Shown here piece by piece: positions 25,101 through 40,750 of a DNA stretch of 64,000 nucleotides (within the stretch, counting starts at the first letter, position 1; every line of letters starts with the position of its first letter). The translations under genes and the position numbers were made by a program. This DNA comes from Natronomonas marina (GTDB lineage: Archaea; Halobacteriota; Halobacteria; Halobacteriales; Haloarculaceae): contig NZ_CP101154.1 in assembly GCF_024298905.1 (NCBI RefSeq), forward strand, positions 1,550,001-1,614,000, read 5' to 3'. The notes beneath the pieces were generated by a model. It made no database searches. It was not told where the DNA came from and saw only the letters and a list, made by a program, of their open reading frames with translations.

Positions 25101-26015
25101 TGCGACCGACAGCGCGAGTTCGAAGCCCATGACGCCCGTGTCGCTTTTCTCGTACCGCGAGCGAGACCGCATCGTCGTCACGGTCTGGATGACGGGCACG
25201 CCGAGCCGGTCGAGGAAGACATCCTCCGCAGCATTCCCCTCATCATCGGCCGCCCGCCCTCGCTCGTCCATCGACAGCGAGAACATGAACGACGAGAGCA
25301 CGGCGTCGACGATAGGCTTTCCATCGTCCAGAAGCCACTCCTCCGTTACGCGTTCAGCGTCCCACTGTTCGTCGCTGTCCGTCGCGGGATTACAGAAAAT
25401 AGGGAGTGCATCCGCACCCTGGGCCTCGACGGCACGTACCTGGCCGTCGACGTACCGCGTGTTCTCGTGGGTCCAATGAGATTCGTAGAACCAGATGGCG
25501 ACAGTCGGTGTGTCTGGATTTAACGTTCCTATCAGCTCCTCGTACGATGCCCCCGGATGGTCCGGATGGTAGACTCCCTCCGTTGGAAGCGTCACCGGTT
25601 CATCGTAGTCACACTCGACGGCCCCGTACTCGTCGACGAGGAACCGAACGCAGTTCGCGACGTTGCTGGTTCCACCCTTCTCCAGGTACTCGTAGACTCG
25701 ATCGCGGTCTGTCGCAATGACGGACGTGTCCTCGAGTGCGTAGGCGTCACCGGTCGATTTGACGACCAGCGGGACGCCAGCCTCCGCCAGACGACCGACG
25801 GCGTGGTCGTACCCTGGCATACTCTCCTCGGCGCCGTGCAGCCAGAAGATCGCCGCCGCCGCATCTTCGAGCTCGTCGAGGAACGCGTCGACGTCTGTCT
25901 GATCGTCGAGATCGCTCTCCGAGCGAACGGCCAAGTCGACGTCAGTTCGCGCCGCCGCCTGCTGGACGGCTCCGAGTTCGTTCTCGGTCGCGGTGTATAG
26001 GCCGATTGTTGGCAT
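22134..26015 (-). CDS. cobN: Cobaltochelatase large subunit CobN
   Basis: A 1293-residue member of the CobN/BchH/ChlH family, which binds the tetrapyrrole and receives cobalt while an AAA+ partner supplies ATP energy. Recognisable segments are AAIFWLHGAEESMPGYDHAV, VHLGTHGSLEWLPGK, VVAWGTPTVRTRGETIAQVL and the C-terminal VLGWDATTGVVSDALW and WMRDVNPWALESI. Length matches CobN. It is divergent from the ChlI/ChlD fusion, its likely partner, with starts only 34 bases apart. Confidence 0.95.
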   Translation of the reverse strand: MPTIGLYTATENELGAVQQAAARTDVDLAVRSESDLDDQTDVDAFLDELEDAAAAIFWLHGAEESMPGYDHAVGRLAEAGVPLVVKSTGDAYALEDTSVIATDRDRVYEYLEKGGTSNVANCVRFLVDEYGAVECDYDEPVTLPTEGVYHPDHPGASYEELIGTLNPDTPTVAIWFYESHWTHENTRYVDGQVRAVEAQGADALPIFCNPATDSDEQWDAERVTEEWLLDDGKPIVDAVLSSFMFSLSMDERGRAADDEGNAAEDVFLDRLGVPVIQTVTTMRSRSRYEKSDTGVMGFELALSVALPEFDGNVITHPISGKERTDDEAGIGSAPKQHFPIDDRVDHAARLAVNWATLRHTSNEEKNVAVVLHNYPPSDDGIGTAFGLDSPESTVNLLQELRERGYDLGGRTPTNGQALIDQLTAQLTLDDRWVAPADVRDLSVDIVPTEQYREWFAATDERFQSNIVDEWGEVPDRPFAIPGVEFGNVLVTVQPPRGFGMDPSKVYHDSDLQPPHDYVAFYGWLRTTFDADAVVHLGTHGSLEWLPGKTVGLNGESAPDQLVDDIPNVYPYIINNPGEGTQAKRRSYAAIVDYLTPVMRNAGTYDELAELEELADQYREAGMEDARTDDGEHLERLLREKVDELDLAVELGIAGDIDERVDVRGPEEAGTTLAEGRVDGDEVDVDELVERIHGYLTDVKTTQIRMGLHTMSEPPEADRLVEYLVALTRLENPGGPSLRESVAGVLGVDYQRMLDEPGVYDDELGMTLSEAADEVYETSIELVETLADHGFDIPASEGEARPEDEVNMNLLVVDIDPLGDARAKSGAHNDLRDALAFICEEVAPRVRGAEDEIPRTADALAGEYVPPGGSGAPTRGGVDLLPTARNFYTLDPRKVPAKSAWRVGKEVADGIAARHHEAEGAYPEEIGVVAWGTPTVRTRGETIAQVLALMGVEPEWTDAGRIDGVTPIPLDELDRPRIDVTTRVSGLFRDAFPQVAGVVHDAVDAVVDLDEPHEMNYVKKHVEEEAEQLDEQGVDDPEKAARHRVFTTRPGGYGAGTNKAVDEGNWDDRSDLADVYVQWGGYALGKRGRVAEAHESFERRLGGVDATVKIEDTAEQDEFDSSDWYAFHGGFITAVSEIAGEEPASYVGDSSDPDNVSVYTNEEKVRKAMRARVLNPDWLDSMEEHDYKGAGDLSSTVDVVLGWDATTGVVSDALWADVAEKYAFDEDRQEWMRDVNPWALESISDTLLEAIDRGLWDADDETADQLRDINLRVDGDIEARAGNANATEVSSDDD

Positions 26016-26049
26016 AACGTTGTTAAACCTCCATTGCGCTAATACAAGT
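26016..26049. promoter_or_regulatory. Compact divergent promoter cobN / chlID
   Basis: The 34 bases between the two ATGs must hold both promoters or share them with coding sequence, so at least one transcript is leaderless. GTTGTTAAAC and AATACAAG are the AT-rich parts. No clear inverted repeat is seen apart from AACGTT at 26016-26021. Confidence 0.4.
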
Positions 26050-28191
26050 ATGGTTGATTACGGCGGAGGCAAAAAAGCTTCGCACGGTCGGGGGACGTCG
26101 CTGTCCTTTTCGGAGATCGTCGGTCAGGAGGAACTCAAGAGAGCTTTACTGGCCATCGCAACGAACGACGGCCTGGATGGCCTTCTCATACAGGGTGAGA
26201 AAGGAACGGCGAAGTCCACGGCGGTGCGGGCGCTAACTGACCTTCTTCCGACACAGGATGCTATCGAGGACTGTCCGTACGGCTGCCCGCCGAACGTACC
26301 CAAATATCAGTGCGAGAGCTGTCGTGAGCGGACCGACCCCCCGACGATCGAACGGTCGGTTCCTCTCGTGACGCTTCCGCTGGGGGCGACCCGCGAGCGG
26401 GTCGTCGGGACGCTCTCCGTGGCGGATGCTCTCGGCGGCGACTACGAGTTCGACCCCGGACTGCTCGCCCGCGCGAACCGCGGTATCCTCTATGTTGACG
26501 AGGTAAATCTCCTCGACGATCACCTCGTCGACGTGTTACTCGATGCGGCGGCGAGTGGGGTCAACAGAATCGAACGTGACGGTATGAGTGTCTCTCACCC
26601 AGCCAGGTTCACGCTCGTGGGGACGATGAATCCCGAAGAGGGAGATCTCAGACCGCAGCTTCGCGACCGTTTCGCACTCCAAGCGACGGTCACCGCCTGT
26701 GAAGACGTGGATCAACGGGTCAGTATCATCGACCGAGCGATCGGACGAATGGATGGAGATGGAACGGAGCAATCGACCAACAAACGTGTAGAGGACAGGG
26801 ACTTCCGGGACCAGTTGTGGCAAGCCCGCAAACGGCTCTCCGAAGTCGATCTCTCAACCCAGTTCGCCCGGGACATCGCAGAACTATGTCGGAACTCGGG
26901 TGTTGACGGACACCGCGGAGACATCGCGACAGCGCGGGCAGCCAGGACGTTCGCCGCTCTCGACGGGCGCTCGAAGGTCATCGAAACCGACGTGCAGCGG
27001 GCGGCAGAACTCGCGCTCCCTCACCGGCTTCGATCACAGCCGTTCGAAGACGCGCCCGATCCGAGTGAACTCATCGACGACCACTTCGATGGTGAGGGTA
27101 ACGACGGCGGGCAAGAGGACCGAAACGACCGCCCCGACGAGGAGCCCTCCGACGCCGACGAGAATCCTCCGGACGGAACGGACGACACCGGAGACGCTGA
27201 GGAGACGGACGCGTCGGACTCGACCGATCCCAGGTCGTCCGAAAAAAACGGCACGTGCGACGGGGCCGAGTCCGGCACGTCGTCCCCGGAACGGAGTGAC
27301 GAGGGAGGGACCGATGATGTCGAAGCAGAGGCGACGGACGAGAACAAGAAGGCGGACGAAAACGACGACGTGACGGAAGGGACACCGATCGTCCCTGGAG
27401 AGTCGCGTGCTGACATCGGGGCGGGACGCGCTCCCGAACTGACCGCGCCCGAAGCCGTCGAGAGCGGGAGAGCAGGTAGCGGATCCCGGTCGCGGACGCA
27501 GCCACACGTCGACACCGAGGGAGCACGGGTACGAAGTCGGCAAGCGGATTCGACCCGACGCATCGACGTCGCGGCGTCGGTTCGAGCGGCATCCGCCCGC
27601 GGCGCTTCGTCCGTTGAGTCGCGTGACCTACGTCAATCTGTCCGCCAGAGCGAGTCCTCCGCGCTGGTGGTGTTCGTCGTGGACGCGAGTGCGTCGATGT
27701 TACCGGCGATGCGTGCGGCGAAGGGAACCGTCCTCGAACTCCTGAAGGACGCGTATCAAAAACGCGACGAAGTCGCGTTCGTCGCGTTCGCCGGCGAGGA
27801 AGCAAACGTGCTCCTCCCGCCGACGAACAGCGTCACCCTCGCCGCTCGACATCTCAAGGATCTGCCGACCGGCGACCGGACGCCACTTCCGTCAGGTCTC
27901 CGAACGGCTGGCGACGTGCTCGACCGGGCCGAACCGAGCGCCAGCGTCGTTGTGCTGGTCACTGATGGGCGGGCGAACGTTGCGAAAGAGAGCCCAGTCC
28001 GTGAGACGCGTGAAGCCGCTAGACGGTTGAGCGAGCTCGACCCCCACGTGGTCGTCGTCGACGCGAGTGACGGTGACCAATCCGGTGTAACGGACCTGGT
28101 CGTCGACGAAACGGACGGCGAGCGTGTCCCGCTCTCCGCACTGTCAGCCGACCGAATCGAGGCGGCCGTCGCTGCCGCACACGAAAGTTAG
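26050..28191 (+). CDS. chlID: ChlI-ChlD fusion: AAA+ chelatase subunit with vWA domain
   Basis: A 713-residue motor subunit for metal chelation. An N-terminal AAA+ domain (20-330) has P-loop GEKGTAKST (49-57), GILYVDEVNLLDDHLVD for Walker B and TLVGTMNPEEGDLRPQLRDR. Cys75, 79, 88 and 91 lie in the insert after helix 1. A very acidic, Ser/Asp-rich linker (about 345-460) leads to a von Willebrand A domain with MIDAS motif VVDASASML (about 544). Bacteria split these as CobS/CobT or ChlI/ChlD. ATG 26050 was preferred over an in-frame start at 25993 inside the cobN start region. It probably powers CobN. Confidence 0.9.
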   Translation: MVDYGGGKKASHGRGTSLSFSEIVGQEELKRALLAIATNDGLDGLLIQGEKGTAKSTAVRALTDLLPTQDAIEDCPYGCPPNVPKYQCESCRERTDPPTIERSVPLVTLPLGATRERVVGTLSVADALGGDYEFDPGLLARANRGILYVDEVNLLDDHLVDVLLDAAASGVNRIERDGMSVSHPARFTLVGTMNPEEGDLRPQLRDRFALQATVTACEDVDQRVSIIDRAIGRMDGDGTEQSTNKRVEDRDFRDQLWQARKRLSEVDLSTQFARDIAELCRNSGVDGHRGDIATARAARTFAALDGRSKVIETDVQRAAELALPHRLRSQPFEDAPDPSELIDDHFDGEGNDGGQEDRNDRPDEEPSDADENPPDGTDDTGDAEETDASDSTDPRSSEKNGTCDGAESGTSSPERSDEGGTDDVEAEATDENKKADENDDVTEGTPIVPGESRADIGAGRAPELTAPEAVESGRAGSGSRSRTQPHVDTEGARVRSRQADSTRRIDVAASVRAASARGASSVESRDLRQSVRQSESSALVVFVVDASASMLPAMRAAKGTVLELLKDAYQKRDEVAFVAFAGEEANVLLPPTNSVTLAARHLKDLPTGDRTPLPSGLRTAGDVLDRAEPSASVVVLVTDGRANVAKESPVRETREAARRLSELDPHVVVVDASDGDQSGVTDLVVDETDGERVPLSALSADRIEAAVAAAHES

Positions 28192-28212
28192 GTTTGGCTC
28201 GTCCGGAAGATT

Positions 28213-28239
28213 TACAATCTTACTTGATATTGTACAAGT
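28213..28239. promoter_or_regulatory. Nested inverted repeats upstream of cbtB
   Basis: TACAAT (28213-28218) pairs with ATTGTA (28229-28234), and ACTTG (28222-28226) pairs with CAAGT (28235-28239). Both end within 40 bases of the cbtB ATG, so a cobalt- or cobalamin-responsive repressor could act here. The ACAA/TTGT core also occurs at 18992 and 38676. Confidence 0.45.
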
Positions 28240-28249
28240 GTGGTTTAGA

Positions 28250-28438
28250 ATGGCGACTGCCAACAACACCGTTCACGGTAGAGTCGAACAGGCACGCATG
28301 GAACTAACGCCGACGCAGCTGGCCGTCGGACTCGCTCTCGTCGCGGCACTCGGATTCGCCCTCCTGTTCGTTCAGGAGCCGATGCTGCACGATTCGATGC
28401 ACAACTTCCGGCACGCGGCGGGAATCACCTGTCACTGA
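28250..28438 (+). CDS. cbtB: CbtB cobalt-transport subunit
   Basis: A 62-residue protein with a single transmembrane helix (about 25-42) and a His-rich end (LHDSMHNFRHAAGITCH), diagnostic of CbtB. It pairs with CbtA, whose gene starts 2 bases after its stop, in cobalt uptake. ATG 28250 follows an AT-rich promoter-like stretch; longer in-frame readings run into the chlID end. Confidence 0.85.
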   Translation: MATANNTVHGRVEQARMELTPTQLAVGLALVAALGFALLFVQEPMLHDSMHNFRHAAGITCH

Positions 28439-28440
28439 CC

Positions 28441-29235
28441 ATGCTCGCTGCCTATCTGAAGCGAGGGGTGAAAGCAGGAGTGGTTGCTGGGCTGGTATTC
28501 GGTCTCCTCATGGCGCTCGTCGCTAATCCGCTCGTCGCGTTCGCCGATGAGCTCGGCCACGAGGGTGGCCACGCTGTCGGTGACCACCACGAACACGCAA
28601 CTGGGGAACACCACGAGGGGAGTGGTGGAGAACAGCACGAGGGCGCCGTTTCGATGACGGTGACAAACGGCGTGAGTATCGTCTCCGGTGTTCTCTGGGG
28701 TATTCTCCTGGGCGGAGTCGTGTTCGGCATCGCCTACTACTTCCTCGAACCCGCAATCCCGGGAACCGGTGGAACGAAGAGCTATCTCTTGGCCGTCGCC
28801 GGCTTCATCACCGTTTCTGGGGCACCGTGGCTCGTGCTCCCGCCACAGCCGCCGGGAGTCGAACAAGCGCTCCCGACGGAGATGCGCATCATACTCTACG
28901 GCGGAATGATGGTGGCCGGTTCGCTCGTTTGTTTGTTCGCAGCGATTGTGTACGGTCGACTCCGAGTCACACACGGACGAACGACCGCGGCCATCGTCGC
29001 GATGCTTTCTCTCTGTCTGCTCGCGATTCCAGCCGCTCTCTCGCCGGTGAACGCGGTGGAGAGTTCCCTTCCATCCGAGCTGGCGATTGGGCTGACGGGA
29101 ATGATCGTGTTCGGACAGGCGTTGCTCTGGCTGCTCCTCGCAGGCACTCACGCCCGACTTCGCCGCCGGTCGATGGACACGGGGGCCTCGGATATCGCAA
29201 CCTCCCCGACCGACGGAACGCTCACTGCAAATTGA
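28441..29235 (+). CDS. cbtA: CbtA cobalt-transport protein
   Basis: A 264-residue integral membrane protein with about five or six helices. The first (10-35) is followed by an external loop with eight histidines among residues 40-66 (HEGGHAVGDHHEH, then GEHHEGSGGEQHEG), a likely cobalt trap. CbtA is a known B12-linked cobalt importer. Its TGA overlaps the next ATG (TGATG), tying it to the 2Fe-2S gene. Confidence 0.9.
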   Translation: MLAAYLKRGVKAGVVAGLVFGLLMALVANPLVAFADELGHEGGHAVGDHHEHATGEHHEGSGGEQHEGAVSMTVTNGVSIVSGVLWGILLGGVVFGIAYYFLEPAIPGTGGTKSYLLAVAGFITVSGAPWLVLPPQPPGVEQALPTEMRIILYGGMMVAGSLVCLFAAIVYGRLRVTHGRTTAAIVAMLSLCLLAIPAALSPVNAVESSLPSELAIGLTGMIVFGQALLWLLLAGTHARLRRRSMDTGASDIATSPTDGTLTAN

Positions 29236-29564
29236 TGAGACCGCGAACCGAGGACGTCGTTGAGAACGGGTTCTCCGACCATGTATTAGTCTGTACGAAC
29301 GCGCGAGACTCGGAGTACGCCTGCTGTGCGGAGGCGTACGGTGATGAGGTGTACGAGGCGGTGAAGTCGTGGCTGCGTGAACGAGACGTCTTCTGGTCAC
29401 GGGTCCACGTCGTCGAGACGAGCTGTCTCGGTCTGTGCAGCGCCGAAGGCACCGCGATCGCCATCCATCCCCGCAATCGGTGGTACTCGGACGTGCTCCC
29501 GGAAGACGTGCCGGAGCTGCTTGAAGACGAATTCGGTGCCGACGCGTCGCAATTAGGAGAGTAG
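29235..29564 (+). CDS. 2Fe-2S thioredoxin-like ferredoxin
   Basis: A 109-residue protein with cysteines at 20, 30, 31, 64 and 68 (LVCTNARD, YACCAEAYG, SCLGLCSAEG), placed as in thioredoxin-fold 2Fe-2S ferredoxins. The same domain is fused to the end of the CbiX at 31218-32444. In this setting it probably supplies electrons for cobalt reduction or a missing reductive step of corrin synthesis. That role is inferred. It is the last gene of the plus-strand chlID-cbtB-cbtA operon. Confidence 0.75.
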   Translation: MRPRTEDVVENGFSDHVLVCTNARDSEYACCAEAYGDEVYEAVKSWLRERDVFWSRVHVVETSCLGLCSAEGTAIAIHPRNRWYSDVLPEDVPELLEDEFGADASQLGE

Positions 29565-29612
29565 CGCCGAGGGTAACGTCTCCGCTAGCAAGTGATCCCG
29601 TTGTGTCCGGAC

Positions 29613-30845
29613 CTACCAGCGGCCCACACCCAATAATAACCGATAGGTGCCTCGGTTCTCACCCTCGTCGTGATAGACTACCGGCTCTTCTACGGCGGCG
29701 AACGATCCACCGTCCAGTGCAACCGCTGTAACGATGCCATCGGTTTCGAGGGCCGTTTCGGGGCCAGTTTCCGAACTGAATATTCGAAGACCGTGGACTT
29801 CGGCATTGCGCGTGCGAAAGTGCTGCGCCCCGGGAACAGCCACGAGGTCGCCTCCGACACCGAGTTCGCTCGCGAAGCCACCGACCGAGGCCGTCCAGAC
29901 GCATTCGCCGTCCGGCGTGTACCCGAGGGCAGTATGTTCGCGGGGGTGTAGCGACGCCGTCTCCCGACCCTCCGTCGAATACGTGTTCCCCGTGACGAAG
30001 ACCGCACCGTGCGCTGTCGCGTGCACGTGGTTCGGATAGGCGTACAACGTTTCACCGTCGACTTCCGTTGGTGTCCCAAGGTCGACACACCACTGTTCGG
30101 CACCCCCGTCGCGGAGGCGGTAGCCACAGTAGTCGCCGTGGCTGGTGACCACGACGCCGTCTTCAACGAGCGAGACGTCACCGACGCGTCGCTGGCCGTC
30201 GGTACCGGGATCCCACTCGTATCGCACGGCACCCGTTTCAGCATCGAGGACGACCAACCCGTGCTGGTGGGTGCCGGGACAGCGATTGTACGCAACGGCT
30301 AGGCGGCGACCTTCGACATCGAGACTGATCGGAGATGCATCGGTATCGTGCGTCCAGACGACATCGCCTGCCTCGTCGAACGCGTAGACGACACTGGTGA
30401 ACGAACGACGGTCAGCGTCGCGCTCGTAGCGACGGGACGCAACGTACAACCGATCTCCATCTGTCTCGATATCTGCGACGAAGGGAAGGAAGAACCGAGA
30501 CGATTTCTGTGGGACCCCGAGGTCCGTCGCTGTGGCGTACTGCCATCGAAGTTCGCCGGTCTTCTGGTCGTAGAATCGGATTGTTCCCTCGGAGCTGCGC
30601 TCGCCGACCGCGATGCCGTCTCCGTATGGCTCCGCTGCTACGACGGACGTCATCTCAGTTTCCGTTCCCCCTCGCCATCGCTCTTCAAGGGTCGTCCGGT
30701 CGTGAGCGACCACGTCCCCGGTGGCCGTTCCAGTGACCACCAGCTCCTCGAGCAACGTGACTGCCGACCGTTTGCCCGCGTGCCGAGATCGAGCGGGCGG
30801 TACGTCACCGAGTCCGACCGCTCGCTGTTGCAGGGCGTTACTCAT
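29613..30845 (-). CDS. PQQ-like beta-propeller protein
   Basis: A 410-residue protein with repeated WD/PQQ-like blades (VVAHDRTTLEERWRGG, TIRFYDQKTGELRWQYA, VYAFDEAGDVVWTHD, GLVVLDAETGAVRYEW). No signal peptide or lipobox is seen, so it should be cytoplasmic, unusual for PQQ-type propellers. ATG 30845 overlaps the DUF3209 stop by 8 bases; an earlier ATG would be deep inside that gene. It is the last gene of the cbiT-led operon, so a link to cobalamin is inferred from position only. No catalytic residues can be assigned. Confidence 0.7.
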   Translation of the reverse strand: MSNALQQRAVGLGDVPPARSRHAGKRSAVTLLEELVVTGTATGDVVAHDRTTLEERWRGGTETEMTSVVAAEPYGDGIAVGERSSEGTIRFYDQKTGELRWQYATATDLGVPQKSSRFFLPFVADIETDGDRLYVASRRYERDADRRSFTSVVYAFDEAGDVVWTHDTDASPISLDVEGRRLAVAYNRCPGTHQHGLVVLDAETGAVRYEWDPGTDGQRRVGDVSLVEDGVVVTSHGDYCGYRLRDGGAEQWCVDLGTPTEVDGETLYAYPNHVHATAHGAVFVTGNTYSTEGRETASLHPREHTALGYTPDGECVWTASVGGFASELGVGGDLVAVPGAQHFRTRNAEVHGLRIFSSETGPETALETDGIVTAVALDGGSFAAVEEPVVYHDEGENRGTYRLLLGVGRW

Positions 30846-31209
30846 CGACGGGGAAGGTCTCGTGGAGGACGTCGTGTGCCTCACCCAACCCGCTAAGGAC
30901 GCTCTCGCCTTGGTCAGTCAGTCGATGGACGGCGCGCTCCGCGTCGCGGACGGCCACTAGTCGGCCACGCATGTAGCCGTACTCCGGGTCGTCTGAATCG
31001 GTGGCGGCGATTTCCTCCTCGAGGTCGACGAGCGCCGCGTCGAGGTGGCGCTCGATCTCCGAAACGGTCTCCGCGTTTGCCAGAGCCTCGATGGGGCCAT
31101 CCAGATGACCCTCTAGTTCGGTCTCCGCGTGTTCGCGTGCGCTCCGGTCTTCGGTACCGAGCACGTTCATCAGTCCGAGTCGTAGGGCTTCGATTTCGTA
31201 GCAGCTCAT
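30838..31209 (-). CDS. DUF3209 family protein
   Basis: A 123-residue acidic, all-helical protein (MSCYEIEALRLGLMNVLGTE at the start, ERAVHRLTDQGESVLSGLGE late). DUF3209 is a family of unknown function found next to cobalt-chelatase genes. His and Cys near the N-terminus could bind metal, but this is a guess. It lies 8 bases after cbiX, in the same operon. Confidence 0.75.
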   Translation of the reverse strand: MSCYEIEALRLGLMNVLGTEDRSAREHAETELEGHLDGPIEALANAETVSEIERHLDAALVDLEEEIAATDSDDPEYGYMRGRLVAVRDAERAVHRLTDQGESVLSGLGEAHDVLHETFPVDE

Positions 31210-31217
31210 GATTGTGG

Positions 31218-32444
31218 TTACAGTGTTTGATCGACGAGATCCGAGACGATACGGTCCCGATCGAGGTGGGACGAAACGATTCGCTCCGCGTCGGTCTGGT
31301 CGACATCCCCGTACCAGACACCGTCGGGATAGACGGCGACCATGGGACCGTCGCCACAGCGGCCGAGACACGACGAACGCGTGATCCGGGCGTCACAGGC
31401 GTCGGAGTCACGGGCCTCCTGTCGCAACCGTTCGAGCACGGCCGGTGAGCCGTCGGCGGCACAGGTCTGATTCGTACAGACCGCGACGTGTTTCTCCGGT
31501 GCGTCGTGCGCGTGGGGTTGGGCGTCCACGTCGTCACGATCTGCGTGGGATTCCTGGTGTGTCAGCGCCCGCAGCATCGCTCTCGCGCCGCCGACGTCCT
31601 CCTCGTACCCGTCGAGTTCCACCTTGTATTTGCAGGTGTCACAGGACATGTCCACGCTGTCCGTCCGGGCTTCCTGCCAGCGATCTCCGAGTACGTCCAG
31701 GAGCCGAGTGTCGGTCCCGAGCGGGTCGCCGGCCCCAGCGTTTACGTACGGATATTCGTCGTCGAACTCGGCGGCACCGTCGCGGATACGTCCGGTGAGT
31801 ACGCCGTCCCCGAGCATGTACGGGAGTACCACCACGGCGTCCGGACGGTTTTTCGCCACCGTGTGGAGCGTCTCCTCGAGGCGCGGCTCGGTAACACCGA
31901 TGAACGACGTTTCGACACGATCGAAGGAGCGCCCCTCGTATAGTAACCGAGCGAGTTTGTGTGCGTCACTGTTCGCGTCCGGGTCGCTGGAGCCACGGGC
32001 ACAGAGGACGACCGCGACGTCATCGTCGTCGCGGTCGATTCCCAGCTCCGCTTCCACAGCCGCGGCCCGATCGTCAAGGAGGTCCACGAGTGCGGGATGT
32101 ACCCCAAGATGTGCACCGTTGTGGATTGTGATCTCAGGGTGTTCCGAGCGGGCGTTCTGGACTGCCAGTGGCACGTCGTTCTTGACGTGACTGGCGGCGA
32201 AGAGCGACAACTGGACGACGGTGATTCGCGAAACACTCGAGGCGAGCCCTGCGATGGCGTCGGGAATCGACGGTTTCGCGAGTTCGAGGTACCCCGCGTC
32301 AACCGGGACGCCGAGTCGTCCTTCCAGGTCGGCGGCAAGCGTGAGAACCTGTTCGTTCGACTTCTCGCGGCGAGATCCGTGTCCGACCAGCAGCACCGCT
32401 TCGTCGTCGAGCCCGATCGAGGTCGCTTTCGCGTTCGTGGTCAT
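31218..32444 (-). CDS. cbiX: Sirohydrochlorin cobaltochelatase fused to a 2Fe-2S domain
   Basis: A 408-residue fusion. Residues 15-265 are two CbiX-type half-domains with VLLVGHGSRREKSNEQV (active-site His near 22) and LFAASHVKNDVPLAV (second His near 85). After a CDTC pair and a His-rich linker, residues 320-405 form a thioredoxin-like ferredoxin (VAVCTNQTCAADG, TRSSCLGRCGDGPMV). CbiX inserts Co(II) into sirohydrochlorin, the first committed step of the anaerobic route. The fused iron-sulfur domain resembles the protein at 29235-29564. The start overlaps the previous gene by 4 bases. Confidence 0.9.
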   Translation of the reverse strand: MTTNAKATSIGLDDEAVLLVGHGSRREKSNEQVLTLAADLEGRLGVPVDAGYLELAKPSIPDAIAGLASSVSRITVVQLSLFAASHVKNDVPLAVQNARSEHPEITIHNGAHLGVHPALVDLLDDRAAAVEAELGIDRDDDDVAVVLCARGSSDPDANSDAHKLARLLYEGRSFDRVETSFIGVTEPRLEETLHTVAKNRPDAVVVLPYMLGDGVLTGRIRDGAAEFDDEYPYVNAGAGDPLGTDTRLLDVLGDRWQEARTDSVDMSCDTCKYKVELDGYEEDVGGARAMLRALTHQESHADRDDVDAQPHAHDAPEKHVAVCTNQTCAADGSPAVLERLRQEARDSDACDARITRSSCLGRCGDGPMVAVYPDGVWYGDVDQTDAERIVSSHLDRDRIVSDLVDQTL

Positions 32445-33157
32445 CGGGAGAGCTCGCCCACCTCACTACCCGTTGCACGTTCGACGCTCCGGCGGAGTTT
32501 CTGCCGCCGCTCCGTCGAGTACAGTCCCGACCCGTCGCTGCCGGCGTACACCCATCGTGCAAACGCCGCCGTGTCCGCATCGTCGCCCAGACCGAACCAG
32601 TATCCACCGGAGGACGTCTCGGAGAGGTCGTCGGCCGGAACGTGGGGATCAGCGGCGTCGAGGAGCGACTGAACCGTCCGAAGTAGGGCTTCGTCGTCGT
32701 GGACGAACGAGACACCGACCGACCCCGAGGACTCACGGAAACAGACGGTGCCACAGGCCTCGAGTAATCCACGAACGAGCTGTGGACGGTACTCTGAGAA
32801 CGTGTCGAACCGATATCCACCAGGCTGTCCGTCGATGGGGAGTCCAAGCGCGGCACTTGCGCGGTCGGCCAGCATCCCGAATACCTGTAACTTGTACTCG
32901 TCTTCGAACCGGACGATCGAGGCATCGTGCGACGACTCGCGGGCAGCGATTCGGTGGTCGTGGTCCGTTCGACCGGCGCCGGCGATCGCCGCAAGCGCGT
33001 CGGCCGACGTCTCATCTGCCGTCCGAACGGTCACACAGTCCTGAGTCAGTTCGCCATCACCGGCTACGCGTCCCCAGAAGTACGCCGTGGCCGGTGTCGA
33101 GGTGAGCAGATCCTCGACCGGGTCCGGCGTCGTGGATTGTCGGTTCGCGTCACTCAT
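32441..33157 (-). CDS. Unassigned protein with LAGLIDADG-like motifs
   Basis: A 238-residue protein inside the cobalamin operon, overlapping genes on both sides. Two segments resemble the paired LAGLIDADG helices of homing endonucleases and WhiA: YFWGRVAGDGEL (26-37), and VRGLLEACGTVCF (128-140) where the acidic residue shifts to Glu. Each is followed by a beta-rich half. It has no HTH. Such folds can lose cleavage and remain as DNA-binding or structural units. A role in corrin synthesis or operon control is inferred only from position. The fold assignment comes from motif reading and needs confirmation. Confidence 0.55.
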   Translation of the reverse strand: MSDANRQSTTPDPVEDLLTSTPATAYFWGRVAGDGELTQDCVTVRTADETSADALAAIAGAGRTDHDHRIAARESSHDASIVRFEDEYKLQVFGMLADRASAALGLPIDGQPGGYRFDTFSEYRPQLVRGLLEACGTVCFRESSGSVGVSFVHDDEALLRTVQSLLDAADPHVPADDLSETSSGGYWFGLGDDADTAAFARWVYAGSDGSGLYSTERRQKLRRSVERATGSEVGELSR

Positions 33158-33413
33158 CGTCTTCCTCCGTCAGCACCTCGATCGCGTCGACCGGGCAGGC
33201 GCGGGCCGCCTGTTGGGCGGCCGTCAGCCGCTCGTCGGTGAACGTCACGAGCTGTTCTCCGTTCATGTCGTGCTCCTGATGACTACCGTCGGCGTCCTCG
33301 TCGATGGTCGCCAACCCGTCCGAGGCCTCGACGAAGCGGTCGTCTCGGACGAGACAAGCGAACACGCCATCACAGGCGCTACGGTCGAGCCGAACCTGAT
33401 ACTCAGTAGTCAT
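33150..33413 (-). CDS. Single-cluster ferredoxin (3Fe-4S-like)
   Basis: An 87-residue protein with Cys14, Cys20 and Cys73-Pro (SACDGVFACLV, ARACPVDAIEV), the pattern of monocluster ferredoxins with only three cysteine ligands. A spacer of about 35 acidic residues lies between the motifs. It overlaps the genes on both sides and is a likely electron donor to a redox step of the cbi pathway, for example ring contraction or a reductase not yet identified. Confidence 0.8.
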   Translation of the reverse strand: MTTEYQVRLDRSACDGVFACLVRDDRFVEASDGLATIDEDADGSHQEHDMNGEQLVTFTDERLTAAQQAARACPVDAIEVLTEEDDE

Positions 33414-34479
33414 ACTTGGACTCGTACCCCCGCGGCGTCACCATCCGATCGTCCCAGACGTACGTCTCCTCGTTTCCGACGAGGATCGTCGTCGTCATGT
33501 CGACGAGGTCCGTCTCGCCGAGGTCCTCAAGCTCTCCGAGTTCAACGATCTCAACCTCCTCGTCGTCGCGGCCCGCCCCGTGGACGACCCCGACAGGCGT
33601 GTCCGGTGAACGGTGTTCCATGAGGATCTCACAGCACTTCTGGAAGTTCTCCCGGCGCTTGCGGCTCCAAGGGTTGTAGATCGCGATGGTGAAGCCCTCC
33701 TTAGCTGCCGCGTGGAGCCGTGACTCGATGGTTGGCATCGACGTCAGGTGGTCCGACAGGGAGATACTGACCGTGTCGTTCACGAGCGGCGCGCCCAACC
33801 GCGCGCCACAGGACTGGGCTGCGGGGACGCCGGGGACGACCTCGAAGTCGACCATGCTCGCGGTCGCACCCTTCGACTCGAGGATCTCCAGCGCCAGACC
33901 AGCCAGCGCGTAGACGTTCGGATCGCCGCTTCCGATGATGGCGACATCGTTACCTGCGAGCGCGCGATCAATCGCTTCCTCCGTGCGAGACACTTCTCCA
34001 CACATCGGCGTATCGTACAGTTCCTCTGCCGACTCCGTGACCTCTTCTGGCAGGAGTTCGACGTACGTGGTGTACCCGACGATATGCTCCGCGTCGAGCA
34101 GCGCCCCGCGGGCACGCTGGGTCATCCCCTCCGGCTGTCCGGGACCCAATCCAACTGCGATGAGTCGTCCGGGATCTGCCTCGAAGTCGTCGACAGTAGA
34201 CCCGACCTTCTCGTCGGTCGCCGACTTCTTCGAACTGCCGCATCCAGAACTCGACGACGTCGTGGACCCGCCACACGTCGACGCGCTCTCACCAGCATCT
34301 GTCGCCGTTCCGGCTGCGCTCGTGACGCCACCGTCGGCCTCGGCGTCCGGGGTCGAAGCGCCGCATTTCGAACTGGATTCGGTGTCAGTCGCAGTTTCAG
34401 CCGCGTTCGAATCGTCACTCGCTCCACAGCTGGTTTCGGTGTCTGTGCTCGTCTCAGTGGTGATGTCGTCAGTGCTCAT
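33403..34479 (-). CDS. cbiH: Precorrin-3B C17-methyltransferase with a Cys-Gly-rich N-terminal tail
   Basis: A 358-residue protein. The enzyme domain starts near residue 104 (RLIAVGLGPGQPEGMTQRAR) and has VAIIGSGDPNVYALAG and FEVVPGVPAAQSCGARLG, typical of CobJ/CbiH. It methylates C17 and drives contraction of the macrocycle. The first 100 residues are Ser/Thr/Asp-rich and low complexity, with four evenly styled C-G-[AGS]-S motifs at Cys18, 39, 69 and 80, absent from the paralogue next door. They could bind metal or an iron-sulfur cluster, or be a flexible salt-adapted tail. It overlaps the ferredoxin gene by 11 bases. Confidence 0.9.
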   Translation of the reverse strand: MSTDDITTETSTDTETSCGASDDSNAAETATDTESSSKCGASTPDAEADGGVTSAAGTATDAGESASTCGGSTTSSSSGCGSSKKSATDEKVGSTVDDFEADPGRLIAVGLGPGQPEGMTQRARGALLDAEHIVGYTTYVELLPEEVTESAEELYDTPMCGEVSRTEEAIDRALAGNDVAIIGSGDPNVYALAGLALEILESKGATASMVDFEVVPGVPAAQSCGARLGAPLVNDTVSISLSDHLTSMPTIESRLHAAAKEGFTIAIYNPWSRKRRENFQKCCEILMEHRSPDTPVGVVHGAGRDDEEVEIVELGELEDLGETDLVDMTTTILVGNEETYVWDDRMVTPRGYESKYDY

Positions 34480-34481
34480 TG

Positions 34482-35381
34482 TCAGAAGTCGTCGACGTCA
34501 CGCCCGCCGCGCGGGGTGACGAGGTGTTTGCCGTAGTCGTTCTCCCAGACTGTCGTCTCGTGATTGCCGATCAGAATGGACGTTCCCATCCCGCCGACCT
34601 CGTCGTCGTGGTCGTTCGCCTCGCCGAGGGTGGTGATGGTGTGTGTCTCGTCGTCCAGATTTCGACCTGCGTCGCCACGGCCGGCGTCATTGAAGATGCC
34701 GACCGGCACGTCGTCGGCTCGCTCCTCGCAAACCACGTCGATGGCGCGTTGATAATCCCGCCAGCAGTTGTAAAGGACGATGACGAAGCCGCTGATCGCT
34801 GCGGCTCGGAGCTTCTCTTCGATCTCGTCCCATCCGCGCCACTTGTCGGACAGCGACACCGTACAGAAGTCGTTCGACAGCGGTGCGCCGAGGTTCGCCG
34901 CGCCACCGAGCGCCGCCGTCACACCGGGGACTACTTCGATGGGAACGTCGTACGCCTCGTCCGCCTCGGCCATCGTGTACAGGAGGTCGCTCTTGCCGTA
35001 GACGTTCGGATCGCCGCCAGAAACGTGGGCGACATCTTCGCCCGCCCGGACGCGCTGGAACGCCTCACGGGCCAGTTCGACCTGCTTCCCCATCGTCGAG
35101 CGGATGAGGGTCTGGCGGGTACCCCCTGGCCGTTCGAAGACGGTACCGGACTCGTCTCCCGCCGCCGTTCCCCCGTCAGGTGCGGCTTCCACCTCGGCGT
35201 TTTCTGGGGGGAGTGTTCCGTCGCGACGGAGGAACTCCTGGTAGAGGTTCGACGCGATGACGCAATCGGCGGTGGTGATGACGTCCTTGGCCCGCTGCGT
35301 CATCGCGTGGGGCAGTCCAGGGCCGATGCCGACGACGAAGAGGGTCCCCATCGCGTCGGCGGTGGCATCTCTGCCATCCAT
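34482..35381 (-). CDS. cbiH2: Precorrin-3B C17-methyltransferase, second paralogue
   Basis: A 299-residue SAM methylase of the same family as its neighbour: LFVVGIGPGLPHAMTQRAKD at the N-terminus, VAHVSGGDPNVYGKSDLL, and IEVVPGVTAALGGAANLGAP. Two CbiH-type genes side by side suggest division of labour, such as methylation against ring contraction, or formation of a heteromer. A polar insert of about 30 residues follows the second strand. Spacing is 2 bases to cbiH and 1 base to cbiG. Confidence 0.9.
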   Translation of the reverse strand: MDGRDATADAMGTLFVVGIGPGLPHAMTQRAKDVITTADCVIASNLYQEFLRRDGTLPPENAEVEAAPDGGTAAGDESGTVFERPGGTRQTLIRSTMGKQVELAREAFQRVRAGEDVAHVSGGDPNVYGKSDLLYTMAEADEAYDVPIEVVPGVTAALGGAANLGAPLSNDFCTVSLSDKWRGWDEIEEKLRAAAISGFVIVLYNCWRDYQRAIDVVCEERADDVPVGIFNDAGRGDAGRNLDDETHTITTLGEANDHDDEVGGMGTSILIGNHETTVWENDYGKHLVTPRGGRDVDDF

Positions 35382-35382
35382 G

Positions 35383-36363
35383 TTACCGCCCCACCGCGAC
35401 GGTCACGGCGTCATCGAACCGCTCTTTCTTCCGGGCGAGGTCGTGCTCGCGTCCGCCGGCAATAGCCGACGCTTCAGCGATACCCGGCCAGCCGATGAGT
35501 TCCTTCGACCGCGAGGGTGAGGGCCCCTCGAACCCCTCCAGCGTTTCCTTCTCGAAGAGGACGACCCCCGCACCGATCTCCTGGGCTGCCTCGTAGAGTC
35601 CTTCTTCACCCTCCTTTCGGGTGCCAGTCGCGATGAACTCCACGTCCGAAAACTCCAGATTCAGGTCGTCGAGGACAGCCTCCCAGGCATCGAGTACCTG
35701 CGCTTTCTTCACCCCCGAGACGGTGCCGGTCCCGAGGACGACGCCATCGGCCGCGTTGCGCTTGAGCACGGTCACGTCGTCGCCGACGAGGACCGCTCGG
35801 GGGCCGTCGAGACGGGCCACCGGACCGAGTTCATCGTTCAAAACGGCGAGGTTCGTCGCGACCGTCGAATCGCCGTTGACGACGTGGGTGTCCAGCGCCT
35901 TCGCCTTGCTCTCGACGCCCTGCTTGCCCGCAGCCTCGCTCGCGGTCGTCATCGCCGGGACTGCGCCCAGTTGTGAGAGATCGTGGGCGACCTGATTTGC
36001 ACCGTGGTGGCCACCCGTGATCGGGATTGCCCACGTGAGCGCTTCGTCGACGACGACGATAGCGGGATCGTCCCACTTGTCATCGAGGAGCGGCGCGGTC
36101 TTGCGCATCGCGATCCCCGAGGCCATCAGCCCGACGAAGCAATCGTACTCGCCCCAGTGTTCCGCGAACACGTCGCCGTGGTACTCGATGATATCCACGC
36201 GCTCGTAGGCGTCGCCGATTCCCGCCTCGATCTCGCGAGCGGTGTCGAGTTTTCGTTCGAAGCTGATGATCGCGATCTCCTCGGCCACCTCGCCGTCCGA
36301 GTCCGGTGTGGAACAGTGACCGCTCGATTCGTCCGAATCCGCGTCGTTGGTGTCGGTACTCAT
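35383..36363 (-). CDS. cbiG: Cobalt-precorrin-5A hydrolase
   Basis: A 326-residue protein that opens the delta-lactone and releases the two-carbon unit as acetaldehyde in the anaerobic route. Recognisable are FVGLMASGIAMRKTAPLLDD, WAIPITGGHHGANQVAHDLS and the C-terminal GTGTVSGVKKAQVLDAW. The first 28 residues are an acidic tail. Presence of cbiG marks the anaerobic, cobalt-early pathway. It lies between cbiF and cbiH2 with gaps of 1-3 bases. Confidence 0.93.
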   Translation of the reverse strand: MSTDTNDADSDESSGHCSTPDSDGEVAEEIAIISFERKLDTAREIEAGIGDAYERVDIIEYHGDVFAEHWGEYDCFVGLMASGIAMRKTAPLLDDKWDDPAIVVVDEALTWAIPITGGHHGANQVAHDLSQLGAVPAMTTASEAAGKQGVESKAKALDTHVVNGDSTVATNLAVLNDELGPVARLDGPRAVLVGDDVTVLKRNAADGVVLGTGTVSGVKKAQVLDAWEAVLDDLNLEFSDVEFIATGTRKEGEEGLYEAAQEIGAGVVLFEKETLEGFEGPSPSRSKELIGWPGIAEASAIAGGREHDLARKKERFDDAVTVAVGR

Positions 36364-36366
36364 GGT

Positions 36367-37233
36367 TCAGTCGTCTGCTTCGCTCTCGGTGGAACTGCGG
36401 TTCGCCCAGTCACCGTACAGGTAGGAACGCTCGTATCCCGCTTTTCGCGCCGCATCGCCGATGATGACGAGCGCGGACGCACGGTAGCCGGCTGCCTCCA
36501 GACGCTCGCCGATCGTTCCGATGGTCCCCTCGATGATCTCCTCGTCCGGCCACGAGGCGTGATAGACCACGGTAACCGGCGTCTCCGGGTCGTGGCCGTC
36601 TTCGAGGAGGCGGTCCATCGTCTCGCCGACCGCGTGAGTGCCGAGGTAGATGCAAGTCGTCACATCACCCATCTCGACGAACTCGCCGATGTGATCGTCC
36701 TCGGGGTCGAGGGTCTTCCCCTGAGGCCGGGTGAAGGCGACGTGGTTGGCCACGCCGTTCAGCGTGAGCTGGGTCCGGAGCGTCGCACTGGCTGCGAACG
36801 CCGAGGTCACGCCTGGAATAATGTAGGTCGGGACCCCCTCGTGTTCCAGAGCATCCATCTGTTCCAGCGCTGCTCCGTAGATTGCCGGGTCGCCGCTGTG
36901 GAGACGGACGACCGTCCGCCCCGCCTCGTAGGCGTCCCGCATCAGCGGCACCAACTCCTCCAGGTCTTTACCGATGCTCGACACCTGCTCGGCGTCCGCA
37001 CAGTATTCGTCGAGAAGTTCGCTGTTGACCAGCGAGCCGGCGTGGACGACGAGATCTGCCGCCTCGACCAGCTCTCTACCGGTGACAGTGAGGAGCCCTG
37101 GATCGCCGGGACCGGCACCGATGAACGGGATGCCCTCCTGTCTCTCGCCAGCAGTTCGCTCCTCGATCCGAGGGTCTCGCTCCGCCGCTCGGGTGGCCGC
37201 CTCCGCGTCGATAGCGTCTTGCGGGTCGGTCAT
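36367..37233 (-). CDS. cbiF: Cobalt-precorrin-4 C11-methyltransferase
   Basis: A 288-residue SAM-dependent methylase. IPFIGAGPGDPGLLTVTGRE lies after a 35-residue leader, followed by VVRLHSGDPAIYGAALEQMD and YIIPGVTSAFAASATLRTQL. LTLNGVANHVAFTRPQGKT is the CbiF/CobM-specific segment. Start and end overlap or abut neighbours. All family motifs are intact. Confidence 0.93.
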   Translation of the reverse strand: MTDPQDAIDAEAATRAAERDPRIEERTAGERQEGIPFIGAGPGDPGLLTVTGRELVEAADLVVHAGSLVNSELLDEYCADAEQVSSIGKDLEELVPLMRDAYEAGRTVVRLHSGDPAIYGAALEQMDALEHEGVPTYIIPGVTSAFAASATLRTQLTLNGVANHVAFTRPQGKTLDPEDDHIGEFVEMGDVTTCIYLGTHAVGETMDRLLEDGHDPETPVTVVYHASWPDEEIIEGTIGTIGERLEAAGYRASALVIIGDAARKAGYERSYLYGDWANRSSTESEADD

Positions 37234-38084
37234 CGCGGCGGGACCTCCGGGACTTCGTCGCCGCAGGCTTCACCTTCGGCTCGCTCCATCGACACGGTAT
37301 CACTCCGAAATTCATCCACGGACCAGGGCTCTGAGGCAGGCTGCGCCCCGCCATCGGTCTTCACCCTCGCTCCGGTGCCAGAGTCGCTCTCCGATTCGGT
37401 CTCTTCGAAGGCCGCAGTCGCCGGCTCCGAATCGAGATCGCATTTCTCCGCGTAAGCCAGCGTATAGTAGTCGCGTTCGGTCAGCGTTCCGGGATCATCC
37501 GTCACGACCGTCTCGCCCTGATCCATGTACAGTCGGCGGCCGTACACCACGTCATAGCCCGCCTCAACGAGCTGTTCGTGGGTCGTCGGGACATCGGTGA
37601 CCTTGAACAGAAGCATCCGATCTGGTCCGGTAGGTGCTGCACCACGAGCGGCCTCGTGAAGCGCGAGACTCGCCCCGGAGGAAATCTCGACGCCAAGAGC
37701 CGTGGTAAAGGCCGTTACGGCACTCACCCCGGGAACGACCACGATATCGACATCAGCGTGAAACGCGGAGAGCGTCCGCCGCAAGTGCCCGAACGTCGAA
37801 TAGACGTTCGGATCACCGAGCGTGACGAACGCCACAGTTCCGTCGCGAGCACGCGGTGCGATCTCTTCAGCGGCCTCGCGCCACGCTCGCCGGAGTTCGT
37901 CCTCGTCGCGAGTCATCGGAAAGTCGACGTCACCGATTCGGTCTTGGGGGACGTGTTCGGTCGCAACCGATCGAGAGAGGCGTCCCGGCGAGTAGACGAC
38001 GTCCGCTGCTTCGAGGACGCGACGTCCGCGTACGGTTACAAGGTCGGCGTCGCCGGGGCCGAGTCCGATACCGTAGAGAGTCAT
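37230..38084 (-). CDS. cbiL: Cobalt-factor II C20-methyltransferase
   Basis: A 284-residue methylase acting second in the anaerobic branch. LYGIGLGPGDADLVTVRGRR stands at the very start, then FVTLGDPNVYSTFGHLRRTL and IVVVPGVSAVTAFTTALGVE. The last 50 residues are a variable polar tail. The ATG overlaps the cbiT stop by 4 bases. Confidence 0.92.
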   Translation of the reverse strand: MTLYGIGLGPGDADLVTVRGRRVLEAADVVYSPGRLSRSVATEHVPQDRIGDVDFPMTRDEDELRRAWREAAEEIAPRARDGTVAFVTLGDPNVYSTFGHLRRTLSAFHADVDIVVVPGVSAVTAFTTALGVEISSGASLALHEAARGAAPTGPDRMLLFKVTDVPTTHEQLVEAGYDVVYGRRLYMDQGETVVTDDPGTLTERDYYTLAYAEKCDLDSEPATAAFEETESESDSGTGARVKTDGGAQPASEPWSVDEFRSDTVSMERAEGEACGDEVPEVPPR

Positions 38085-38650
38085 CGCTGTCCCCCGTCTG
38101 CCGCAACCGCATCGGTCCCGCCCACCAGCATGTACACCGGGTTGTCGGAATTGAAACTCGTCGCGCCGGCGAGTTCGTACCCGTGACTCACCTGGAACTG
38201 GACGACCTCTTCCAGGAGGTCCCGATTACGGAACGCCTCGGTGGCGGATCCAGCGACTTCGAGCCGCGAAACGTTCATGACGATACGGTCAACCTCGGTT
38301 TCGACTGCGTGGTCGAGGACTGCCTCGTAGTTCCGACTGCCGCCGATGAACAGGACGTCTGCGTCGCCGGGTAACCCCTCGGGAGCTTCGGCTTCCCGAA
38401 GGTCAACGCCCCCGGTCACCTCATTGGCAGCGAGATTTTTTCTGGTAGTTTCGATTCGTTCTGCTTTTCGTTCGAGTGCAGTGACCCGACCCGCGCGCCG
38501 CGCCGCCTCGATCGTAACGGCGCCGGTACACGAACCGACCTCTGCGAAGTGGTCGGTCGACCCGAGGTCGAGTTTGCTGAGAAGGACGGCCCTGACCTCC
38601 GGTTTCGTCGGACCGGCCTTCGCATCGTGTGGGAGCGATACGTGTGCCAT
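38081..38650 (-). CDS. cbiT: Cobalt-precorrin-6B C15-methyltransferase (decarboxylating)
   Basis: A 189-residue class-I methyltransferase. The SAM site is FAEVGSCTGAVTIEAARRAG (about 35-54), with TALERKAERIETTRKNLA and DVLFIGGSRNYEAVLDHAV. It methylates C15 and removes the C12 acetate carboxyl, working with CbiE. ATG 38650 was chosen over one 4 codons upstream because MAHVSLPHDAKAG fits the family start better. It is the first gene of the operon down to the beta-propeller gene. Confidence 0.92.
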   Translation of the reverse strand: MAHVSLPHDAKAGPTKPEVRAVLLSKLDLGSTDHFAEVGSCTGAVTIEAARRAGRVTALERKAERIETTRKNLAANEVTGGVDLREAEAPEGLPGDADVLFIGGSRNYEAVLDHAVETEVDRIVMNVSRLEVAGSATEAFRNRDLLEEVVQFQVSHGYELAGATSFNSDNPVYMLVGGTDAVAADGGQR

Positions 38651-38675
38651 CGCCGAACACAACTATCGTGAGGCG

Positions 38676-38697
38676 TAAAACAATTTTGGTTGTTTTA
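38676..38697. promoter_or_regulatory. Inverted repeat in the cbiT/regulator gap
   Basis: TAAAACAA-TTTTGG-TTGTTTTA is perfect over 8-bp arms with a 6-base spacer, 26-47 bases upstream of the cbiT ATG and so at the promoter. Core and spacing match the ACACAA-N6-TTGTGT repeat at 18992-19009. It may be bound by the divergent regulator at 38798-39613. Confidence 0.55.
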
Positions 38698-38708
38698 GAG
38701 AAATTTAA

Positions 38709-38745
38709 GTTGGGTAGTTTGCCGTAGAGGTCATGTTTACCCAAC
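38709..38745. promoter_or_regulatory. Second, wider inverted repeat in the same gap
   Basis: GTTGGGTA (38709-38716) and TACCCAAC (38738-38745) are perfect 8-base inverted copies 21 bases apart, lying between the two promoters. The same ACCCAA/TTGGGT sequence forms the palindrome at 19011-19025, so both cobalamin promoter gaps carry the same pair of motifs. Confidence 0.5.
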
Positions 38746-38797
38746 CTCATGCGTTCTAAGCCAAAGTTACTTTAGTTCGCAGTCCAGAGAAGAGATA

Positions 38798-39613
38798 ATG
38801 CCGAAGAACGCGGCCGATCCCGAGGAATTCGGCGTTCTCCAGAGCAAACGTAACGCCACACGGTATCAAATCCTCGTCCAGATCGCAGAACGACAACCCG
38901 CGGTAAACCAACAAGAGATAGCCGATGCTATCGGGGTCACCTCCCAGGCTGTGAGCGATTACCTCCAAGACCTGGTTGAACACGGATACGTCAACAAGCA
39001 CGGCCGTGGCCGATACGAAGTAACCAAGGAAGGAGTCGACTGGCTGATCTCACAGACCGACGAGTTGCGCCACTTCATCGAACACGTTTCTGAAGACGTC
39101 ATCGGACAGGTCGAGATCGAGACTGCAATCGCGACGACGGAAATCAGCGAAGGAGAGACCGTATCACTGACGATGCAGGACGGTGTTCTACGGGCTATGT
39201 CTGGTGGGGCCGGGAGCGCAACTGCAGTTGCAGTCACGAACGCGGAGGCAGGGCAGGATGTTGGAATTACGAATTTCGACGGGGTCGTCGATTACGACTT
39301 GGGTTCGGTGACTATCGTCTCGATCCCACGGGTTCAAAACGGCGGAAGTTCGGCGGTGGATCCGAATAGAATCGCTGAGATGGCCGAAAGCCACGATCTG
39401 ATAGCGGTTGGTGGAGTCGAGGCTATCGCCGTCGCTGAGGCAGCAGATCTCGAGCCAGACATTCGTTTCGGAAGCGCGTCTGCTGTTCAAGAAGCAGCTG
39501 CGAAGGGACTCGACATACTGCTCCTATCTTCGACAGATCTGCTCTCGGCACACACCGACAAACTCCGGGATCAGAATCTCAGTTATGAGGTCGTGGACGT
39601 GGCGGACACGTAG
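38798..39613 (+). CDS. MarR-type winged-helix regulator, candidate cobalamin-gene regulator
   Basis: A 271-residue protein with an N-terminal winged helix (RYQILVQIAERQPAVNQQEI, then QAVSDYLQDLVEHGYV, about 20-75). The C-terminal alpha/beta part (about 110-270) has glycine-rich segments (AMSGGAGSATAVAVTN, DLIAVGGVEAIAVAEAADL) suited to binding a small ligand. It is divergent from cbiT across two inverted repeats, so autoregulation and control of the cbi genes by corrinoid or cobalt is the simplest reading. The ligand is unknown. Its ATG is 21 bases before mvaD debris begins at the other end. Confidence 0.7.
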   Translation: MPKNAADPEEFGVLQSKRNATRYQILVQIAERQPAVNQQEIADAIGVTSQAVSDYLQDLVEHGYVNKHGRGRYEVTKEGVDWLISQTDELRHFIEHVSEDVIGQVEIETAIATTEISEGETVSLTMQDGVLRAMSGGAGSATAVAVTNAEAGQDVGITNFDGVVDYDLGSVTIVSIPRVQNGGSSAVDPNRIAEMAESHDLIAVGGVEAIAVAEAADLEPDIRFGSASAVQEAAAKGLDILLLSSTDLLSAHTDKLRDQNLSYEVVDVADT

Positions 39614-39639
39614 CGCCGCCAACTAGCGGACCTGTGAAT

Positions 39640-40599: not shown

Positions 40600-40750
40600 C
40601 TGAGAACATCTCAGTCTATGGTTTTTTAATGGACTCGAGGAAAGTCGATTGCTTGAGAATCCGAAGAGAACATCCTATGCATTGAGACGGCCAGTCTCAA
40701 CTACTGGAAGGGGAAGGTTCAGGTACATCTGCCCGATACCGGCGACACGA

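Follow-up and report, generated by a model that had tools for sequence, protein, structure and literature searches.

Background

Regulators, splicing helpers and mating-type switches are known among domesticated LAGLIDADG proteins, and LAGLIDADG proteins bind a divalent metal between the ends of their two motif helices. WhiA is one such cell-domesticated protein, which does not cut. It carries a helix-turn-helix (HTH) domain and acts as a transcription factor (PMC11701221).

Two described systems concern the supply of cobalt to the chelatases of vitamin B12 synthesis. The CbiX-L chelatase of Bacillus megaterium ends in a His-rich tail proposed to store and deliver metal, although for insertion by B. 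megaterium CbiX the tail is dispensable (PMC7689651). In the cobalt-late pathway the cobaltochelatase receives Co(II) from CobW, whereas the cobalt-early chelatase CbiK works without a metallochaperone (PMC10206600). CobW, a GTPase, differs in fold and pathway from the protein described below; we claim no relationship between the two and consider only an analogous role.

The pathway of Haloferax volcanii, as presented in the main text of PMC8305020, has two consecutive gaps, for which four unassigned genes of the cobalamin cluster are named as candidates. One of the four, HVO_B0055, is listed there without an assigned function and with synteny conserved in most haloarchaea; it lies between cbiX1 (HVO_B0054) and HVO_B0056/cbiH2 (HVO_B0057), and that main text gives it no fold. 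The gene studied here occupies the same slot in Natronomonas marina and is equated with HVO_B0055 by gene order, not by sequence. To this extent the gene was already known, its Haloferax counterpart being an unassigned member of the cobalamin cluster in that source. In the main texts of the part of the related literature that we covered, we found no mention of its fold, of lost nuclease residues, of its near-perfect co-occurrence with cbiG or of an exchange with His-tailed CbiX.

Results and discussion

The locus and its surroundings

The window, a stretch of 64,000 nucleotides, contains a cobalamin operon on the minus strand in which a gene for a 238-residue protein (32441–33157, minus strand, ATG start, no internal stops) shares 4 bp with cbiX and 8 bp with a ferredoxin gene, an overlapping arrangement that the first-pass annotation had read correctly from the open reading frames. 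The cbiX gene (31218–32444, minus strand; PF01903, E 3e-49) encodes a cobaltochelatase of the CbiX-L type with an MSCDTC motif and a C-terminal thioredoxin-like [2Fe-2S] domain (31272–31499; PF01257, E 4e-8), and the ferredoxin (33150–33413, minus strand) belongs to Fer4_15 (PF13459, E 7e-18). Upstream on the same strand follow cbiH2 of the precorrin-3B C17-methyltransferase family (33403–34479; TIGR01466 above cut-off), the diverged second paralogue cbiH1 (34482–35381; TIGR01466 below cut-off) and, assigned by NCBIfam, cbiG (cobalt-precorrin-5A hydrolase, 35383–36363), cbiF (36367–37233), cbiL (cobalt-factor II C20-methyltransferase, 37230–38084) and cbiT (38081–38662). Downstream, cbiX adjoins a DUF3209 gene (30838–31209, minus strand; PF11483, E 3e-52), followed by another cluster member, a PQQ-repeat (beta-propeller) protein recognized by a domain match (29613–30884, minus strand). 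Farther away lie cbtB and cbtA, probable cobalt transporter subunits (28124–29235, plus strand; PF09489 and PF09490), a chelatase AAA/VWA gene, and cobN, the large subunit of a late-type cobaltochelatase/Mg-chelatase (22134–26015, minus strand; PF02514).

A winged-helix protein with a DUF7839 domain (38798–39613, plus strand) is encoded divergently from the head of the cbi operon. This gene adjoins cbiT in many of the loci read and is a likely operon regulator. Beyond it lies a diphosphomevalonate-decarboxylase-like gene (39634–40602, plus strand) with an MVD-like N-terminal and an MDD C-terminal domain; one in-frame stop at about position 40024, with the frame open on either side, marks it as either a pseudogene or an assembly error. 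A tRNA search of the whole window found none.

A predicted LAGLIDADG fold

Both of the LAGLIDADG-style stretches picked out by the first-pass annotation are present in the protein, AYFWGRVAGDGEL at residues 25–37 and VRGLLEACGTVCF at residues 128–140. An AlphaFold model built from an alignment of 17 haloarchaeal relatives (mean pLDDT 74, pTM 0.76) places the former on a helix formed by residues 22–34 (33056–33094, minus strand) and the latter on a helix formed by residues 117–135 (32753–32809, minus strand) together with the next strand, 136–141. The second of these helices ends in Cys135. In each half of the model the order of elements is helix, strand(s), helix, strand, strand, helix, giving paired helices in two halves of the alpha-beta-beta-alpha-beta-beta-alpha type found in the LAGLIDADG superfamily.

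When the model was compared with the PDB by Foldseek, ranks 1–20 were all LAGLIDADG homing endonucleases, maturases or inteins (best E 4.2e-5, probability 0.99–1.00), including the bI3 maturase, I-Tsp061I, I-SceI, I-DmoI and inteins. The weak matches at ranks 21–22 were LAGLIDADG proteins too, and the first match of another kind, at rank 23, had a probability of 0.11. Profile comparison by hhalign with an alignment of haloarchaeal LAGLIDADG_3 domains from related genomes gave E 2.7e-6 and 1.9e-5 (probability 89% and 78%) for the two halves, these E-values being one-against-one and their scale set by ten other families from the same loci, all of which stayed below 5% probability. Since the first twenty fold matches are uniform and both halves score above the controls, the fold call is right: the protein has a two-domain LAGLIDADG fold, with a resemblance beyond chance.

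The similarity is faint at the level of single sequences. Searches with the protein against Pfam, NCBIfam and PDB were blank or not significant, so that the fold call of the first-pass annotation caught something that standard annotation misses. LAGLIDADG_3 (PF14528) was the Pfam family most often matched by the 17 relatives, weakly and in 4 of them (best E 0.0065). The family profile found only chance matches among PDB sequences, such as DBP5 and eS12, and a search of PHROGs gave no meaningful match. A comparison of one half with the other was not significant either, and the internal repeat is therefore seen only through the fold and through the match of each half to LAGLIDADG_3.

The protein thus shares the two-domain fold, the paired helices and the profile similarity in both halves with LAGLIDADG homing endonucleases and maturases (I-DmoI, I-Tsp061I, I-SceI, bI3 maturase; PF14528). 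The likeness to WhiA suggested earlier did not hold up: neither the protein nor any of the 17 relatives matches the WhiA HTH domain in Pfam, the transcription-factor features of WhiA were not found, and the fold matches listed are homing endonucleases and maturases. Some members of the family seemed to contain an internal TGA codon that could be taken for recoding; this was the terminal stop codon in two of the loci inspected, and in a third the stop lies upstream of the start.

Loss of nuclease residues

In homing endonucleases that cut, each LAGLIDADG helix ends in an acidic residue. Conservation was counted over 84 family members (82 for His77). By hhalign, D34 aligns with the first catalytic acid of LAGLIDADG_3, where Asp is found in only 71% of the members and the residue varies among D, S, N and A. 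The catalytic Asp of the second motif aligns with Cys135, which is Cys in 83 of the 84. Because the first acid is variable and the second is replaced by a nearly invariant cysteine, the protein is almost certainly not a nuclease as judged from its residues, which bears out the earlier suggestion of a domesticated, non-cutting state for this 238-residue protein (32441–33157). Two further residues are invariant, Cys139 (codon 32741–32743, minus strand; 84/84) and His77 (82/82), and together with Cys135 they form a candidate set of metal ligands.

The gene also differs from homing endonucleases in its inheritance. Active members of that group are mobile, residing in an intron, an intein or an empty site, while here we find a stand-alone gene in a conserved slot of the B12 operon, inherited vertically or with the cluster and showing no invasive behaviour.

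Co-occurrence with the B12 pathway

In a collection of 392 haloarchaeal genomes the gene was found in 206 and cbiG in 211; both were present in 205 genomes and neither in 180, with cbiG alone in 6 and the gene alone in 1. Fisher's exact test gives p ~1e-103, a value that ignores relatedness among the genomes and is inflated by it. In the single genome with the gene alone, G183 (88% complete), the gene lies at the edge of a contig. Most of the loci read keep the order cbiG-cbiH1-cbiH2-fdx-gene-cbiX-DUF3209, in line with the constant company of cbiX and cbiH that the first-pass annotation had proposed to check in haloarchaea. Protein distances of the family and of CbiG are correlated (Mantel r 0.73, compared with a maximum of 0.27 in 999 permutations), and very few genomes have more than one copy of the gene. 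Among 295 genomes sampled across the phylum there were no convincing relatives from outside the order, the one match having E 0.029. The gene is tied to the B12 pathway and tracks cbiG almost perfectly.

Two genomes have unusual arrangements. The cluster of G045 is distributed over more than one contig, and the gene survives as a diverged copy at another place, near a dCTP-deaminase-like gene that carries an apparent intein with LAGLIDADG motifs of its own (L079, 13362–15443). In G085 the cluster is split over two places, cbiG is duplicated and diverged, and the gene (L080, 9263–10039) has acquired a repeat of roughly five SNAT units that lies between the two domains.

The cobalamin cluster of N. 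marina (22134–39613) is for the most part 80–97% identical at the protein level to records from Haloarchaeobius, Halobellus, Haloarcula and Haladaptatus, the Haladaptatus copy being located on a plasmid. Identity to the clusters of its own genus is mostly 46–83%, and 60–63% for the gene considered here. As the copies of other genera are closer than those of the same genus, the cluster, this gene included, appears to have come in by horizontal transfer as one block.

Exchange with His-tailed CbiX

The six genomes with cbiG and without the gene (G044, G046, G068, G130, G278 and G322) differ from the others in their chelatase. Among the gene-positive loci that were read, the C-terminus of CbiX is a thioredoxin-like [2Fe-2S] domain and in no case a His-rich tail, whereas each of the six gene-negative genomes carries a CbiX with a His-rich tail containing 12–40 His. 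Five of the six belong to one lineage, and from their clusters DUF3209, the ferredoxin and the CbiX [2Fe-2S] domain are likewise missing.

A tree of CbiG, CbiF and CbiL places the remaining genome of the six, G130, within the gene-positive ones. Here the ferredoxin, DUF3209 and a [2Fe-2S]-tailed CbiX are all retained, and the very slot between fdx and cbiX that the missing gene would fill is taken by an additional cbiX with a His-rich tail (tandem cbiX genes, one His-tailed and one [2Fe-2S]-tailed, at 12703–13644 and 13689–14885 of L077). Its congener G158 has the 238-residue gene in that slot. CbiX matches occur in 93 of 117 genomes of the family of G130, with the extra His-tailed copy only in G130; in the sample, no other cbiG-positive member of the family lacks the gene. 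Since the tree sets G130 apart from the other His-tail clusters, the gene and His-tailed CbiX have been exchanged in two independent cases; these are few, and they agree.

A proposed role at cobalt insertion

The His-rich tail and the protein described here are different objects, the former an unstructured part of the chelatase itself and the latter a separate folded protein, yet the tail, proposed to store metal for this chelatase and pass it on, stands in for the gene in six genomes. If the tail can indeed take the place of the gene, the most economical reading is that the protein serves a comparable function alongside the CbiX of the [2Fe-2S] type. Our tentative proposal is that a LAGLIDADG protein lost its nuclease chemistry and was taken into the haloarchaeal cobalt-early B12 pathway, where it would act with CbiX, presumably by direct contact, at the insertion of cobalt into sirohydrochlorin. 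It would most likely hold Co(II) and hand it over, or otherwise ready CbiX, and so do the job of the His-rich C-terminal tail of other CbiX proteins. The metal could sit in the old binding pocket, between the ends of the two motif helices; Cys135 at that point, together with Cys139 and possibly His77 and His153, would make a plausible Co(II) site.

Several observations count against this role. With only two independent swaps, their agreement could be a coincidence. The deep His-tail lineage does not single out the 238-residue gene, because its clusters have also lost DUF3209, the ferredoxin and the CbiX [2Fe-2S] domain, and G130 keeps a [2Fe-2S]-type CbiX while being without the gene. Two published points weigh against the role as well: insertion by B. 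megaterium CbiX does not depend on its His tail (PMC7689651), and CbiK of the cobalt-early pathway manages without a metallochaperone (PMC10206600). The more specific version, in which a homing-endonuclease fold serves as a dedicated cobalt metallochaperone with a Cys-ligand pocket that loads CbiX in the cobalt-early pathway, we consider rather doubtful. It would be a new claim, held lightly here, since the route is described as free of metallochaperones on the evidence of CbiK (PMC10206600).

The strongest rival, in our view an unlikely one, is that the protein is a redox or Fe-S maturation partner of the ferredoxin and of the [2Fe-2S] domain of CbiX, for example keeping the cluster or the cobalt reduced in an aerobic cell, and carries no cobalt. 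Its place between the ferredoxin gene and cbiX, overlapping both, would fit such a function, as would the two nearly invariant cysteines and the joint absence of the gene, the ferredoxin, DUF3209 and the [2Fe-2S] domain from the deep His-tail lineage. However, G130 has lost the gene and kept all three of these presumed partners, and two cysteines are few for an Fe-S site.

The first-pass annotation had left a choice between a regulator of the operon and recruitment into cobalt or corrin chemistry. The comparative data favour the second of these, next to CbiX, while a regulator would not be predicted to be lost in exchange for a chelatase. Regulation of the B12 operon by a DNA- or RNA-binding protein whose LAGLIDADG groove binds a site without cutting it, in the manner of WhiA-like or maturase-like proteins, is nevertheless consistent with a fold family that mostly binds nucleic acids and with best matches that include the bI3 maturase and homing endonucleases. 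It would also suit the Rfam search of 21000–41000, which matched no B12 riboswitch and no other Rfam RNA. Against it, the protein has no HTH domain, and the separate winged-helix gene stands at the operon head. The 238-residue protein has a smaller share of basic residues than haloarchaeal LAGLIDADG_3 domains (9.6% compared to 13.2% K+R) and a net charge per 100 residues of -8 compared to -3, and its acidity resembles that of the enzymes of the operon. This composition weakly disfavours binding to nucleic acids, and on the whole we judge a regulatory role quite unlikely.

Improbable, too, is the idea that the protein replaces CbiD (C1-methylation) or CbiJ (reduction) in the haloarchaeal pathway. 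Neither CbiD (PF01888) nor CbiJ (PF02571) was found in any of the 145 genomes tested, this one included, by searches that matched six control genomes for PF01888 and three for PF02571; the earlier remark that CbiD and CbiJ/CobK are not visible in the window consequently extends to the whole genome. This absence, and the naming of the Haloferax counterpart among the gap candidates in the main text of PMC8305020, speak for such a replacement. A functional replacement should be present wherever the pathway runs and CbiD and CbiJ are absent, but the cbiT-L-F-G-H1-H2-X set is present in all six gene-negative genomes, of which the four in the 145-genome sample have neither CbiD nor CbiJ. Assuming that those clusters work, the gene is not required for the CbiD and CbiJ steps everywhere. 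The protein has no Pfam match to PF02571 or PF01888, and no methyltransferase or nucleotide-binding fold is present among its fold matches.

CbiH1 is the better candidate for the CbiD substitute. The two CbiH paralogues are encoded in tandem (33403–35381, minus strand), and the diverged CbiH1, kept in all six gene-negative genomes, fits a role in C1-methylation, which is also suggested in the main text of PMC8305020.

The reading of the gene as an active homing endonuclease, or as a decaying remnant parked in the operon, has the LAGLIDADG fold itself in its favour and is close to refuted by the variable first acid and the second being Cys in 83 of 84 members, the open frame in 206 genomes, the mostly single copy in a conserved slot, and protein distances that correlate with those of the cbi genes (Mantel r 0.73 with cbiG).

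Conclusions

An unassigned and nearly universal gene of haloarchaeal B12 clusters gains a predicted fold and a place in the pathway. One of the four candidates for the CbiD/CbiJ gap can probably be taken off the list, which leaves CbiH1 as the best candidate for CbiD. The proposed action beside CbiX is directly testable in the genetic model Haloferax volcanii. Should the metallochaperone version prove true, it would add a new fold class to the metallochaperones, in a pathway reported on the basis of CbiK to do without them (PMC10206600). A LAGLIDADG protein with a part in a cofactor pathway would extend the known roles of the fold.
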